A stretch of 64,000 bases of DNA, from NCBI GenBank assembly GCA_025360005.1, contig JANYDA010000008.1, positions 1 through 64,000 of the forward strand, given 5' to 3'. The position numbers were made by a program, and so were the translations under genes. Source of the DNA: Fibrobacteria bacterium. Lineage in GTDB: Bacteria; Fibrobacterota; Fibrobacteria; UBA11236. Below are positions 36,560-42,766 of this stretch, piece by piece. Under the pieces are notes generated by a model. It was not told where the DNA came from. It made no database searches and saw nothing but the letters and a program-made list of their open reading frames with translations. Within the stretch, counting starts at the first letter, position 1. Each line of letters begins with the position of its first letter.

Positions 36560-37918
36560 CTACTTCTCGATTAAAAGTTCCGGATGCTGCTCCAGGAACT
36601 TGGTGCTGTATTGGCCTTTGACAAACAGGGGATGCTGTAGGATGCGTTTGTGCAAAGGAATAGTGGTCTTAATGCCCATGATGACGAACTCGTCCAGCGC
36701 GCGCAACATGCGGGCGATGGCGTACTCGCGCGTAGGCGCATGCACGATGAGTTTGGCGATCATACTGTCGTAATTGGGCGGCACTTCATAGCCGCTGTAG
36801 CAATGGGTGTCGATGCGCACTCCCATGCCGCCGGGCAGGTGGAAGTCCGTGATGGTGCCGGGACAAGGGCGGAAATCGTTCCAAGGATCCTCGGCGTTGA
36901 TGCGGCATTCGATGCTGTGGCCCGCCATCATGATGCTCTTCTGGGAGAACTCCAGCTTCTCCCCCGCCGCGACCAGGATTTGCGCGCGCACCAGATCGAT
37001 GCCGGTGACCATTTCGGTCACGGGATGCTCCACCTGGATGCGCGTGTTCATCTCCATGAAATAGAAACTGGAATCCTTGCTATCGAACAGGAACTCGATG
37101 GTGCCCGCATTGTAGTAGCCGGCCCCCAGCGCGCCCGCCACCGCTATCTTGCCCATCTTGGCCCGTACCTCCGGCGATACGGCCGGGCTGGGGCTTTCCT
37201 CGATCAGTTTCTGGTGCCGGCGTTGGATGGAGCAATCGCGTTCGCCCAGGTAGGTCATGTTGCCGTGCTTATCGCCCATCAGCTGGATCTCGACGTGGCG
37301 AGGCTCGGTGAAATAGCGTTCCAGATACAGGCTGCCATTGCCGAAATTGGCCAGGGCTTCCGCCGCGGCCACCGGGAACAGCTTCTTCAGCTCTTCCTCG
37401 TTGAGCGCCACGCGCATGCCGCGCCCGCCGCCGCCCGCCGTGGCCTTGACGATGACGGGATAGCCCACCACGTTGGCCGCCGCGATGGCGTCCTTGAGGG
37501 TATTGACCAGGCCGTCCGAGCCCGGGATGGTGGGCACGCCTGCGGCCTTCATGGTGGCTTTGGCGGAACTCTTATCGCCCATGGAACGGATGGAATCCGG
37601 CGAAGGGCCGATGAAGGTCATGCGGTTCTCTTCGCACATCTCCGCGAACTTGGCGTTCTCGGAGAGGAAGCCGTAGCCGGGATGGATGGCATCGGCATTG
37701 GACAGCTCCGCCGCGGCCAGGATCTGTTTCATGTTCAGGTAGCTGGCCTTGGAGTTGGGCGGGCCGATGCAGATGTCCTCGTCCGCGAAATGGACGTGGA
37801 GGGAATGGGCGTCGGCGGTGGAATGCACGGCCACCGTCTTGATGCCGAGTTCTTTGCAGGATCGGATGACGCGGAGGGCTATTTCGCCTCGGTTGGCGAT
37901 CAGGATCTTTTTAAACAC
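36560..37918 (-). CDS. accC: acetyl-CoA carboxylase, biotin carboxylase subunit
   Basis: A 452-residue ATP-grasp enzyme that carboxylates the biotin on AccB with bicarbonate and ATP, the first half of malonyl-CoA synthesis. The start [23 protein letters not shown] is diagnostic. ATP-grasp motifs include [14 protein letters not shown] and [19 protein letters not shown]. The catalytic segment is [22 protein letters not shown], followed by [18 protein letters not shown]. Its start overlaps the pilT stop by eight bases and dapA follows after one base. It belongs to the acc operon although a pilT gene separates it from accB. Confidence 0.96.
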
Positions 37919-39011
37919 CGAGCATCCAGCTCCGGTCGGAAGTGCCTTCGACCCCGCGCACCTTCAACTCGAAATCGTCCGGATTGCTGGCGGCGCGCAA
38001 CGCGGTCTCGTAGCTGATCAGGTCGTCCTGGTACAGCCGCAGTATGGATTGATCGAAGGATTGCGATCCGTATTGGGTATAACCCTCGCGGATGCTGGCG
38101 TCTATCATGTGGGTATTCTCGGGTTGCGTCAGGAGTTCCCTGATGGTTGCGTTGTTGACCAGGATTTCGCAGGCGGGCACGCGGCCCAGGCCGTCCTTGC
38201 GCGCCAAGAGGCGCAAGGTGATGATGGACACCAAGGTGCTGGAGAGCATCAAGCGCACCTGCTGGTGCTGGTGGGGCGGGAAAAAGGAAATGATGCGATT
38301 GACGGTTTCGATCGCGTTCATGGTATGCAGGGTGGAAAGCACCAGGTGGCCCGTGTCCGCGGCGGACAGGGCGATGGACATGGTTTCCTGATCGCGGATT
38401 TCCCCGACCAGGATGACGTCCGGATCCTGGCGGAAGGCGGAACGCAGGGCGGTGGTGAAACCGGTGGTGTCCGAATTGACTTCGCGCTGGGAGATGATGC
38501 TCTTCTTGTCCTTGTACAGGAATTCGATGGGGTCTTCGATGGTGACGATGTTGGAAGAGGTATGCTCGTTGATATGATCGATCATCGAGGCCAGCGTGGT
38601 GGACTTGCCGGATCCGGTGGTTCCCGTCACCAGGATCAGGCCGCGCTTGCGCAGGGACAGATCGCGGATGACTTCCGGCAGGCCCAGCTGCTCGAACGCG
38701 GGCACCACGCCCACGATGGCGCGGACAGCCAGCGCCGGAGTGCCGCGCTGCTTGAAGGCGTTGACGCGGAAGCGGCCGATGTTGCGGATGCCGATGGCGA
38801 AATCCAGCTCCAGCTTTTCGTCGAAGGTGGTCTTCTGGTTGCGGTCCATCAGATCCAGGATGAACTGGTCCATTTGTTCCGGGGTGATCCGCTCGTTCTG
38901 GAGCCGGTACAACTCGCCGTTGATCCGGAAGGCCGGCTGGCCCCCCACGCGCAGATGCAAATCCGACGCATTGCGGAGCACCATCTCCTTGAGGAGGGAC
39001 TCAACGTTCAT
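37911..39011 (-). CDS. pilT: type IV pilus retraction ATPase PilT
   Basis: A 366-residue secretion ATPase. PilT N-terminus: [27 protein letters not shown]. Walker [16 protein letters not shown]. The Asp box [10 protein letters not shown], Walker [14 protein letters not shown] and His box [16 protein letters not shown] follow. The retraction-specific segment near the C-terminus (AREIL-like [16 protein letters not shown]) supports PilT over PilB. It powers pilus retraction for twitching, surface sensing or DNA uptake. ATG 39011 has GGAG six bases upstream. It sits between accB (37 bases upstream) and accC (8-base overlap), an unexpected place; no other pil genes are in the window. Confidence 0.93.
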
Positions 39012-39048: not shown

Positions 39049-39534
39049 TCAACCGGGCCTGATACGGAACAGCACGGTTCCGTATTCCACCGGCGTTTCG
39101 TTTTGCACGCAGACTTCCTCGACCACGCCCGATACATCCGACTCGATCTCGTTCATGATCTTCATGGCTTCGATAATGCAAAGCACTTGGCCGGCCTTGA
39201 CCACGGTGCCCACCTGGGTAAGGGCCGGCGAACCGGGCGATGAGCTGGCGTAAAAAGTCCCCACCATGGGCGAGGTGACGTCCTTGAATTTGGATCCCGC
39301 TTTTTCGGGACCGGCGCCGGGGGCGCCTGCGGGCTGGTAAGTGGGCGCCGCAATCGCAGCCATGGCCGCGGGCGCCGCCGCCATGGGCATGGCCACCATG
39401 CCCGTCTGCATGGGCGCGGCCCGGAAGACTTCCTTCTTCAGCACGACCTTGGATGTCTCGTCGCTGAAGCTGATCTCGGTGAGACTGCTCTTATCAAGCA
39501 GCTTGACCAGGGAAGCCACGTCGTTCAATTGCAT
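39049..39534 (-). CDS. accB: biotin carboxyl carrier protein of acetyl-CoA carboxylase
   Basis: A 161-residue carrier. The N-terminal helix (LNDVASLVKLLDKSSLTEISFSDE) and Ala/Pro/Met-rich flexible linker (~45-85) precede the biotinyl domain (~85-160), which begins TSPMVGTFYASSSPGSPALTQVG. The biotinylated lysine is in IEAMKIMNEIE. It carries the biotin between AccC and the AccA/AccD transferase. It follows the TPR gene by about 48 bases and precedes pilT. Length and architecture are standard. Confidence 0.96.
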   Translation of the reverse strand: MQLNDVASLVKLLDKSSLTEISFSDETSKVVLKKEVFRAAPMQTGMVAMPMAAAPAAMAAIAAPTYQPAGAPGAGPEKAGSKFKDVTSPMVGTFYASSSPGSPALTQVGTVVKAGQVLCIIEAMKIMNEIESDVSGVVEEVCVQNETPVEYGTVLFRIRPG

Positions 39535-39582: not shown

Positions 39583-42438
39583 CTACTTCTTCCGTTTGGG
39601 AACCTTCAGCCCCGGCCTGGGCCTGCGAGGGTCCGATCCGGGCCCGCCGGCTCCGCCTTCCGGCTTGGCCGACTCGATCTCTTCAATCCGCTTGCGGACC
39701 GATTCGTTTTCGGGTTCCCGTTCCATGAGCTGGCGGTAGATTTGCAACGCCTGCTCTCTCAAACCTTGCTGGAAATATATTTCCGCTAGGGTAACCGTGG
39801 CAACATTCGCTCCCGCTCCGGTCCCGGAAGGCATTTCCTCCTCTTCCGGATAACCGTCCTCCTCGTCCAACATGGGAGCCAAATCGGGCGTGGGCTTGTC
39901 CACGGGCTTGGTTGAGCCGGTGATTGGCGGTAATTCCTCTTCGGTATCCATTCCGGCGGGAACACCCGTTTCGGTCGGTGATCCGAATCCGTCCGCACCC
40001 GCTCCGGCCGCAGCATCCTCTTCCGAGACGAATAGGGACATTTCCGCGCCTGTGGTCGCGGCCGCAGCCGCATCACCACCTGCCTCCGCGAATAAAGCGT
40101 CCAAACGTTCGGCGACTTCCGCGCCATCCACCATCTCGATGGAGGCCGTGTCCGACAAGGCGGCCAAATCTTCCGGAGCCAGGGTTCCGAAGGAATCCGT
40201 CTCGTCTCCCAGCGCGGCCAAATCCTCATTCGGCAGGAACATGGTGTCGCCGGCATCCATCCCGGAGGCGGGAACTGCGGATCGTTGATCGGCATCCTCA
40301 CTCTGGCGCGCCAGCCACTCGGCCACGCTCTCCTTTATGCGGCCGGCGTCCTTGGGCACGCGCGCTTCACGGAGGGAAGGATCCCCCATGGCAGGCATGA
40401 TCACGGTGAGGTCCGACTCGTCTCCGGGCGCGGGCTTGCCGGCGTTCCCGCCCCTGTCGTCCGGACCGGGTGTCCCGAAAGTTACGGTATCGCCGGCGTT
40501 AACAGGGTCGCGGCCCGGCAGTAATCCTTTGGGCCTGAATGTCTCGCCTTCCTCCTCGATGCGGAAGAGTTTGTCCAACTGCTCTTCTACGTCGGCGCCG
40601 GTAATGCTGGGACCGTCGCCGGCATCGCCGAACCAGCCGGGGGGCAGCATGGATTCCGTGGACATCACGTCCCCGGTGGGAGGCGGCGGGGGCGTCCCGT
40701 TATCCTGGGCCCAAGGTTTCATTTCCCGGAGGGTTTCGGTCTGGGACGCATCCATCGGCAGGGAACCGGTCCCGGCTCCAAAGCGGGTTCCGTCCGGCTC
40801 TTCTGCGCTCGAGGTTTCCGGGCCGGCCAAAGGCATTTCCGCCTCGGCTTCCGGAGCGCTTTCTGCTGGGAAAGCCGGAACCGCATCTTCCCCCACTATG
40901 GCGGAGCCCGGGGATTTGGCGGCCAGCGCGGGCTCTTCCCCGAAAAGAGAATCCAATTTGTCTGCCACATCCTGGCCGGTGACCAGGTCTTGGCCGGGTT
41001 CCGGTAGGTATCCGGGTTCCCGGAACGCGACTTCGCCGCCGAAAGAGACTACTTCGCCCATGCTCACGGATTCCTGCACCCTGGGTGCAGGCGCGACGGG
41101 TAACCGCGAGGATACCTGGGCGGATGGCGGAACGAGATCCCCCTCCTCGGTAAGATTGAAAAGCTCGTCCAAGCGGCGCTCGATGTCCTCTCCCAGGACC
41201 CCGCCGCTTTCATCCATCTCCCCCGGGCGGGAGCCGTCGGTGCGGCCGGACGCTGGCGGTGGCGTCACGAACTCTACTCCGGACTCCAGATCGTCGGCGG
41301 TGGGGAGATCCGGGAGCGAAGCCATATCGATGGGGCTGGGTTCGGATGGGGTCCCGGCTGCGGCTTGCATCGCGGTCTCGTTGCCCAGGAAATCAGGTTC
41401 CGACCCGGCGGGCGTCTCTCCGCCGTCCATGACCCGCATTTCACCGGTGGCGGTGGCGGAGCTTTCGGGAGCGTAGGGTTCGGCGGCGGAGAAATCGATG
41501 GGGACCGGGGCTTCCTGGACGGGCGACTCGGCGGGCGCGGGAGTCCAGGTCGCGGTTCCGGAGCGGGAGGATGAAGTAGGGCCGTCGTCGGATCCGAAAA
41601 GCGAGTCCAAACGATCTTCCACGTCCTGGCCGGAAATGGGGGGCGCATCCTCGGCCGGCTCCCCCCTCTCATCGATGGGCTCCTCTTTGAGGACGTCCAT
41701 CGGTTTCGGCTCTGCCAAGGCATCGGGAACCAAGCTCTTGCGGGTATCCTCCATCGAGGGCTCGCGGAAATTGGCAGGAGGCGGCTGCAGGGCGCTCTCC
41801 AACCCCACGGCGCCCGCGGGAGGAAGGGAGCCGAACTCATCGGGCAGGGGCGATAAAGCGTCTTCCAGGGACTCTTCGATGAGGCTCATGGAACCGGAGG
41901 CGTCCGAATCGCCGGGCAGGAAATCGGAAGCGACGTCGTTGAGGTTCACTTCCAATACGTCGCCGGCAAAGCCTTCCGGCTTGGCGAAGGTTTCCTCTTC
42001 CCGGGCGGCGGGCGTTGAGGCCGCGGACGGCATAGCGGTAAGGGGAGACGCTTCACCCAGCAAAGCCCGGATTTCCCGGTCCCAGGGTTCCACCTCGAGG
42101 ATCGACTTGTAATATCCCGCCGCGGCATCCGCCCATTGCAGCTTGGTCATGATGCGGGCCAGGAAATGCATAGCGGAAAGGCAACGGGGATCCAGCCGTA
42201 AGGCGGCTTCGAAAGGTTCGCGCGCCTCTTCCATGCGGCCCGCGTCCATGAAGGATTTACCGAGCACCAGGTAGGCGGAAAGAGTATTCGGACGGACGCG
42301 CAGTCCGTCCTGGCAAACCTGGATGGCTTCTTCGAGCTTGCCCTCTCCCCGCAGCACGTCCGCCAGGCGCGGAAACCCAGGCGCTCCCGGCCCCGGGAAC
42401 TTCCGTTGCAATTGATCGGCAGTATACTGGATGCTCAT
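39583..42438 (-). CDS. large TPR protein with disordered acidic linker bearing five LDxLF repeats
   Basis: About 951 residues. The N-terminal ~130 residues are TPR-like (LADVLRGEGKLEEAIQVCQDGLRVRPNTLSAYLVLGKSFM). A final TPR is at the C-terminus (LAEIYFQQGLREQALQIYRQLMEREPENESVRKR). The ~700 residues between are low-complexity Pro/Glu/Ser/Ala. Within them recur five amphipathic motifs: DVEDRLDSLFG (~266), DIERRLDELFNL (~411), DVADKLDSLFGEE (~485), DVEEQLDKLFRIEEEG (~608) and EVAERLDALFAEAGG (~768). There is no signal peptide. It is probably a cytosolic scaffold with repeated partner-docking sites. It lies between the Trm112-like gene and accB; its partner and function are unknown. Confidence 0.8.
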   Translation of the reverse strand: MSIQYTADQLQRKFPGPGAPGFPRLADVLRGEGKLEEAIQVCQDGLRVRPNTLSAYLVLGKSFMDAGRMEEAREPFEAALRLDPRCLSAMHFLARIMTKLQWADAAAGYYKSILEVEPWDREIRALLGEASPLTAMPSAASTPAAREEETFAKPEGFAGDVLEVNLNDVASDFLPGDSDASGSMSLIEESLEDALSPLPDEFGSLPPAGAVGLESALQPPPANFREPSMEDTRKSLVPDALAEPKPMDVLKEEPIDERGEPAEDAPPISGQDVEDRLDSLFGSDDGPTSSSRSGTATWTPAPAESPVQEAPVPIDFSAAEPYAPESSATATGEMRVMDGGETPAGSEPDFLGNETAMQAAAGTPSEPSPIDMASLPDLPTADDLESGVEFVTPPPASGRTDGSRPGEMDESGGVLGEDIERRLDELFNLTEEGDLVPPSAQVSSRLPVAPAPRVQESVSMGEVVSFGGEVAFREPGYLPEPGQDLVTGQDVADKLDSLFGEEPALAAKSPGSAIVGEDAVPAFPAESAPEAEAEMPLAGPETSSAEEPDGTRFGAGTGSLPMDASQTETLREMKPWAQDNGTPPPPPTGDVMSTESMLPPGWFGDAGDGPSITGADVEEQLDKLFRIEEEGETFRPKGLLPGRDPVNAGDTVTFGTPGPDDRGGNAGKPAPGDESDLTVIMPAMGDPSLREARVPKDAGRIKESVAEWLARQSEDADQRSAVPASGMDAGDTMFLPNEDLAALGDETDSFGTLAPEDLAALSDTASIEMVDGAEVAERLDALFAEAGGDAAAAATTGAEMSLFVSEEDAAAGAGADGFGSPTETGVPAGMDTEEELPPITGSTKPVDKPTPDLAPMLDEEDGYPEEEEMPSGTGAGANVATVTLAEIYFQQGLREQALQIYRQLMEREPENESVRKRIEEIESAKPEGGAGGPGSDPRRPRPGLKVPKRKK

Positions 42439-42508: not shown

Positions 42509-42766
42509 TTATATCAAACCTTCCAGGGGAATTGCCTCATCAATCAGCATAATGGGGATGTCTTCCCGGATGGGGTATAAATACTTCTTATCCGCCCGGA
42601 TTAGGCCGGAATCCATCTTTTCCTTCACGATTTCCCCGCCCCGGTTGCGCAATTGCCCCGCCTCCACCTTGATGTTCAGCGCTTCGATCAACCCCGCCTC
42701 GGCCAAAGCCACGTCGTCCTTGGTTTCCGGGCAACACAGCATGTCCAAAAGTTCCTGATCCACCAT
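42509..42766 (-). CDS. Trm112-like small protein
   Basis: An 85-residue protein beginning VDQELLDMLCCPETKDDVAL and ending with KYLYPIREDIPIMLIDEAI, the two ends of the Trm112/UPF0434 fold. Only the N-terminal Cys pair remains of the zinc site, as in many bacterial members. A charged insert (~28-58) is longer than in short relatives. Bacterial Trm112-like proteins are thought to act as activators or accessory subunits; the partner here is unknown. ATG 42766 has AGGACGG just upstream, and the gene follows accA by about 11 bases. Confidence 0.85.
   Translation of the reverse strand: MVDQELLDMLCCPETKDDVALAEAGLIEALNIKVEAGQLRNRGGEIVKEKMDSGLIRADKKYLYPIREDIPIMLIDEAIPLEGLI

Follow-up and report, generated by a model that had tools for sequence, protein, structure and literature searches.

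What does a TPR protein bind that carries one short motif five times in a disordered linker, and what is its place among the acc and pilT genes around it? This question is raised by a gene in the window, which is the whole stretch of 64,000 nucleotides of Fibrobacteria DNA that was analysed. The gene, its parts and its neighbours are given below; f and g codes are search labels for families and genera.

39583..42438, minus strand: TPR scaffold gene with the motif array, 951 aa, ATG at 42438; orthologues assigned by synteny
42049..42438, minus strand: N-terminal TPR domain, residues 1-130 (Pfam TPR; AlphaFold2 pLDDT at least 85 in every ten-residue block)
39811..42048, minus strand: disordered acidic linker, residues 131-876 (pLDDT mostly <50; 39% identity in the genus; absent in genus g2, G006-G009)
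39670..39810, minus strand: C-terminal TPR, residues 877-923, TVTLAEIYFQQGLREQALQIYRQL (Pfam, genus conservation, AlphaFold2)
39586..39651, minus strand: basic tail, residues 930-951, RRPRPGLKVPKRKK (RPLAGVRIKKK in several other families)
42532..42766, minus strand: trm112-like gene, upstream of the TPR gene, kept in nearly all loci examined
39049..39534, minus strand: accB, between the TPR gene and pilT (Pfam Biotin_lipoyl)
37911..39011, minus strand: PilT-family pilus retraction ATPase (TIGR01420, 456.6 bits, above cut-off; start set at MNVESLL), adjoining the TPR gene in other families

The Pfam matches of the scaffold were to TPR-type families only (residues ~24-126 and ~880-915), in agreement with an earlier note on this DNA that had placed TPRs at both ends. 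Among six same-genus genomes, no part of the protein was more conserved than the C-terminal TPR (0.92); the N-terminal TPR reached 0.76. AlphaFold2, run on 29 orthologues, gave a confident fold in the two TPR ends only. The pTM of the scaffold was low (0.37), so the motif helices were not placed confidently relative to the TPRs.

The gene order in the window genus was GT2-GT-accA-trm112-TPR-accB-pilT-accC-dapA, which bears out the run from trm112 to accC read earlier. Other families held parts of this order, often trm112-TPR-pilT. The acc genes adjoined the scaffold gene in families f1, f2 and f4; in the f3 and f5 loci the order trm112-TPR-pilT persisted and acc genes were not found alongside. 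A link to lipid synthesis, which the earlier note had considered together with motility and polar organisation, was rejected on this adjacency in some families only, and on genus g2, which retains acc genes without pilT or the motif linker. The motility and polarity context was upheld.

The linker contained five copies of the consensus [VI]xGx[DE][VI]xxxLDxLF. The strict pattern G-x-[DE]-[VI]-x3-[LM]-D-x-[LM]-F had exactly five matches, compared with 5e-5 expected from shuffled linkers. The G of the matches stood at 270, 416, 488, 614 and 772, where the first reading had put the motifs at ~266, 411, 485, 608 and 768.

41596..41637, minus strand: motif 1, ISGQDVEDRLDSLF, residues 268-281 (AlphaFold2 helix 271-280)
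41158..41199, minus strand: motif 2, VLGEDIERRLDELF, residues 414-427 (AlphaFold2 helix 416-426)
40942..40983, minus strand: motif 3, VTGQDVADKLDSLF, residues 486-499 (AlphaFold2 helix 488-498)
40564..40605, minus strand: motif 4, ITGADVEEQLDKLF, residues 612-625 (AlphaFold2 helix 614-625)
40090..40131, minus strand: motif 5, VDGAEVAERLDALF, residues 770-783 (AlphaFold2 helix 772-784)

An equivalent of motif 1 was found in families f3, f4 and f5. The helices predicted in the linker were one per motif and a single extra one at 706-714. Over six same-genus proteins, identity was 87% at the motif positions and 39% (19% gaps) elsewhere in the linker; of 20,000 random sets of linker windows, not one matched the motif conservation. 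The proposal that selection acts on the motifs in a drifting linker thus held, also when the homologues were checked for absence of the motif and for drift equal to that of the linker. The array might instead be a product of low-complexity repeat drift with no specific binding role, as the near-identical tandem copies in the orthologues of G069 and G064 show repeat expansion. This is hardly credible, because each motif position is kept between species at the above identity although the copies of the window genus differ among themselves, and because two unrelated proteins, described below, have the motif as well.

A degenerate sixth motif had also been suspected near residue ~870. The stretch in question, PPITGSTKPVDK, actually starts at residue 837 and was rejected because it aligned to non-motif linker in the congeners. 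A genuine sixth motif (VSGEDVSSRLxELF or VSGAEVAARLDDMF) lies between motif 5 and the C-terminal TPR in four of the five congeners; it is missing here and, so far as the alignment indicates, is lost in the window genome. In addition, two linker segments without LDxLF were conserved in the genus: MSTESMLPPGWF (residues 592-603, 40630-40665, minus strand, identity 0.88) and EEDGYPEEEEMP (residues 859-870, 39829-39864, minus strand, identity 0.87).

When the whole genome was scanned with the motif profile, the five scaffold copies were followed by the C-terminal end of a Roadblock protein of MglB type (...EQVADKLDLLFPGDK) at E 0.45, a match that is weak and not significant alone and is lifted by its position and recurrence. 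This protein was assigned to MglB by comparison with solved structures, its NCBIfam MglB match being below the cut-off, and its gene stands directly after that of an MglA-type GTPase. MglB is the GAP of MglA, a Ras-like polarity GTPase. The motif tail was present in the MglB of six of the six genus members and of G014 (family f4). The score of the window-genome tail against the profile was equalled in only 5 of 20,000 shuffles. For the Myxococcus MglB tail, 1704 of 20,000 shuffles were as good, so that the link to Myxococcus rests on the structural register and the shared core residues. The MglB of family f3 had no motif tail, yet the f3 TPR protein retained the array, and the f7 MglB tails were without the LF core. 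Chance matches of the profile in G054 and G007 were inspected and dismissed. A natural MglA-MglB read-through was rejected as well, every scorable junction being out of frame.

The structure of Myxococcus MglB is known: a core (10-131), a disordered stretch (131-146) and a Ct-helix (147-157) that lies on MglA in 6IZW, in a pocket formed by helix alpha5, strand beta2 and the beta2-beta3 loop (PMC6785124). Residues 147-157, matched to the PDB chain, are EISDDDIDNLF. The AlphaFold2 model of the window-genome MglB had the same arrangement, with the core at 8-134, disorder at 137-148 and a predicted helix at 149-156 on the motif. Like the motif, the M. xanthus Ct-helix (PDB 6IZW) is a short acidic helix ending in I-D-N-L-F after a disordered stretch, and the scaffold copies likewise had a helix core of the type [ILM]-D-x-[LM]-F after a disordered stretch. 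The difference is that MglB, a Roadblock protein, has a single terminal copy, whereas five lie inside the scaffold; furthermore, the Ct-helix docks into the MglA pocket, whereas docking of the scaffold motif is proposed here. In the Myxococcus structure, MglB Asp154 and Phe157 contact MglA Lys185 and Lys181, and these two MglB residues are the counterparts of D and F in the LDxLF core.

The MglA of the window genome aligned without gaps to Myxococcus MglA (5YMX/6IZW), with Lys181, Lys185, Leu64 and Ile67 kept. Both lysines, Leu64 and Ile67 were likewise kept in the f7-f12 MglA proteins that were read. Position 185 differed elsewhere, being Met in f3, Ser in f2 and Arg in f5. Where MglA has Lys185, 104 of 123 motif copies had D or N at the D position, and in f3 (Met185) 15 of 27 copies had D. 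This covariation of motif D with Lys185 is no more than suggestive, because neither the copies nor the species are independent and the identity of residue 185 was taken at family level.

In the same genomes MglB ends in this motif, and the likely partner is therefore MglA. The earlier view that one partner is bound repeatedly is still the best explanation, whereas AccB and PilT, its candidates, are less likely than MglA. Since the motif also forms the MglB tail, the scaffold probably brings several MglA molecules together and thereby controls type IV pili. In our judgement, the protein is fairly probably a cytoplasmic multivalent docking scaffold of the MglA/MglB polarity module acting on type IV pili; the cytoplasmic location, MglA binding, multivalency in the cell and pilus-control role are what we infer from the sequences. 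Each motif would fold into a short amphipathic helix, in imitation of the C-terminal helix of MglB, and would bind the MglA pocket that helix alpha5 makes with the beta2-beta3 loop. The array could concentrate several MglA molecules or, alternatively, competition for the same pocket could hold MglA near MglB. The folded TPR ends may hold further partners; proteins of the pilus machine, for instance the neighbouring PilT, are plausible ones. It is also conceivable, with chances a little short of even, that the scaffold, through its high valence, condenses MglA into a hub at pilus sites and that lineages dropping MglA rewrite or lose the motif.

The motif was found in a third class of proteins, predicted to have a single TM span, with one copy at the C-terminus:

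L174:2541-3611, L175:1283-3292 and L177:1977-3128: C-terminal-motif proteins with an apparent N-terminal membrane span and an EATQEF element
L169:1952-3169 and L170:2667-4109 (minus strand): C-terminal-motif proteins of family f7 of similar look, with an apparent N-terminal membrane span

The spans were judged from the sequence by eye. A further member, in L176, had its start interrupted by unread bases, and no family was matched by the L174 protein in Pfam and NCBIfam. TPR domains often bind terminal peptides, and MglB and the single-TM proteins bear the motif at their C-termini. The motifs might thus bind the TPR domains of the scaffold itself, in cis or in trans, with self-assembly and capture of the MglB and membrane protein tails. 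This is distinctly unlikely, as genus g2 retains both TPR ends without any motif; the low pTM, with its lack of a confident helix-TPR placement, weighs weakly either way.

The use of one MglA pocket by several proteins has a precedent. The helix of RomR can replace the MglB helix on MglA in a chimera (PMC6785124). Like the motif, the Glu-rich C-terminal helix of RomR is the helix of a second protein for this pocket, and the pocket is therefore shareable. Unlike the scaffold, RomR has one helix on a response-regulator protein and no TPRs, and it also binds MglC (PMC12719032).

The layout was earlier described as having no named family, which needs qualifying, as Myxococcus SgmX has a comparable overall plan (PMC7519303). 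SgmX is a TPR effector of MglA-GTP for type IV pili (PMC7519303) and recruits the ATPase for pilus extension to the pole (PMC7519303, PMC11580455). Like the scaffold, SgmX and also Bd2492 of Bdellovibrio are TPR proteins without a known middle domain; they are MglA effectors for type IV pili, as is proposed for the scaffold (PMC7519303, PMC3983030). SgmX also has TPRs at both ends, the likeness being drawn from published descriptions. However, it has 14 TPRs and MglA is bound by the three C-terminal ones (PMC11580455), whereas the scaffold has a short N-terminal TPR domain and a small C-terminal TPR, and would bind MglA through linear motifs of its disordered linker. The neighbourhood is different too, acc/pilT for the scaffold and the tamAB operon for SgmX. 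By analogy, the scaffold most likely works like SgmX with MglB-tail-like motifs; homology with SgmX is not claimed.

A search of the contig collection with the full protein returned two close relatives only, and whole-genome searches served better. The orthologues in f7, f9, f11 and f12 had the N-terminal TPR and the motif array, the C-terminal TPR where the ORF was complete, and in most cases the basic tail. Of the 29 orthologues examined from genomes with MglA or MglB, 28 had 1-14 motif copies by the relaxed pattern; the sole exception was G010, in which MglA was present and the scaffold was without an LF-type motif. Several genomes are drafts, in which an apparent gene absence may be a missing contig. 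Four drafts (G053, G084, G070 and G072) had motifs but no MglA match, and missing contigs are a likely, though unproven, explanation because their genus siblings have MglA. In G100, MglB was present with no MglA match.

In the four genomes of genus g2, MglA and MglB were not found, nor was a PilT-family or related ATPase in that genus. The g2 TPR protein had ~230-310 residues, with both TPR ends kept, the linker gone and no motif (4/4). In genus g11, MglA and MglB were not found in the 12 genomes listed, while PilT was kept in the seven checked. No LF motif was present in seven g11 orthologues (one partial), and the array unit was turned into DLTGDMDSLLAS, with repeats of the type DLTGD[MI]xSLLAS. 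The loss of MglA and the loss or change of the LF motif are thus associated, which is suggestive because only two lineages, g2 and g11, are involved. Direct binding of the motifs to the neighbouring pilus ATPase PilT (or PilB) would agree with the proximity of the TPR and pilT genes in several families and with the fact that g2 has lost both the motifs and the pilus ATPases. It would leave the motif on MglB unexplained, and g11 has PilT but not the LF motif; we regard it as very unlikely.

The g11 array, which occurs without MglA, indicates that the array can serve something else. FliM-type SQxEIDALL peptides dock receiver domains, and the DLTGDMDSLLAS units look like them. The motif might accordingly dock another polarity or pilus component common to MglB and the scaffold, for example a CheY-like or pseudo-receiver domain; the persistence of the DLTGDMDSLLAS array in g11 speaks for this. 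It also agrees with Myxococcus, where the pseudo-receiver of FrzS binds SgmX (PMC11580455). However, the LF form tracks MglA, and the D and F of the motif match the two Ct-helix residues that touch MglA lysines in the solved structure, so receiver docking is unlikely, though it deserves to be weighed. Docking to MglA remains the preferred reading of the LF form. As a separate observation, the g11 repeat (L204, L205, L206, L207, L208, L209 and L154) reads EQL...DLTGD[MI]xSLLAS, similar to FliM-type receiver-docking peptides.

FimV of Pseudomonas, a TPR protein with an acidic linker, is polar and has an influence on type IV pili; it carries a LysM part in the periplasm and spans the membrane. 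The scaffold shares the TPRs and the acidic linker. It differs in that a LysM domain was not found in it by Pfam, which matched TPR families only.

Known MglA effectors come from very few bacteria, and the recognition of this GTPase is poorly understood. If the proposed docking is true, a conserved and countable linear motif common to the GAP and a scaffold would be a sequence signature for MglA partners, and multivalent control of a bacterial small GTPase would become directly testable. It would also give an opening onto the polarity and pilus biology of Fibrobacterota, of which no report of such kind was found in the literature searched.

Some features of the mglAB side were also observed. 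The MglA proteins of this phylum (L183-L200) had a long C-terminal extension, which was Pro/Gly-rich in the window genus. Its end was often a basic tail (KKKGFFDGLFKKEK, QKGFLSKFFNKD) similar to the membrane-targeting tail of MinD, and this tail may anchor MglA to the membrane. The MglB of f9 and f11 can have a similar basic ending.

L062:9907-11919, minus strand: mglAB-side locus with the MglA extension
L062:12274-15415, minus strand: upstream of mglAB, two proteins without a Pfam match and a DUF4388 protein

One of the two proteins without a Pfam match was small and Roadblock-like by eye, and the genes upstream of mglAB in L062 are possible further members of the polarity module.
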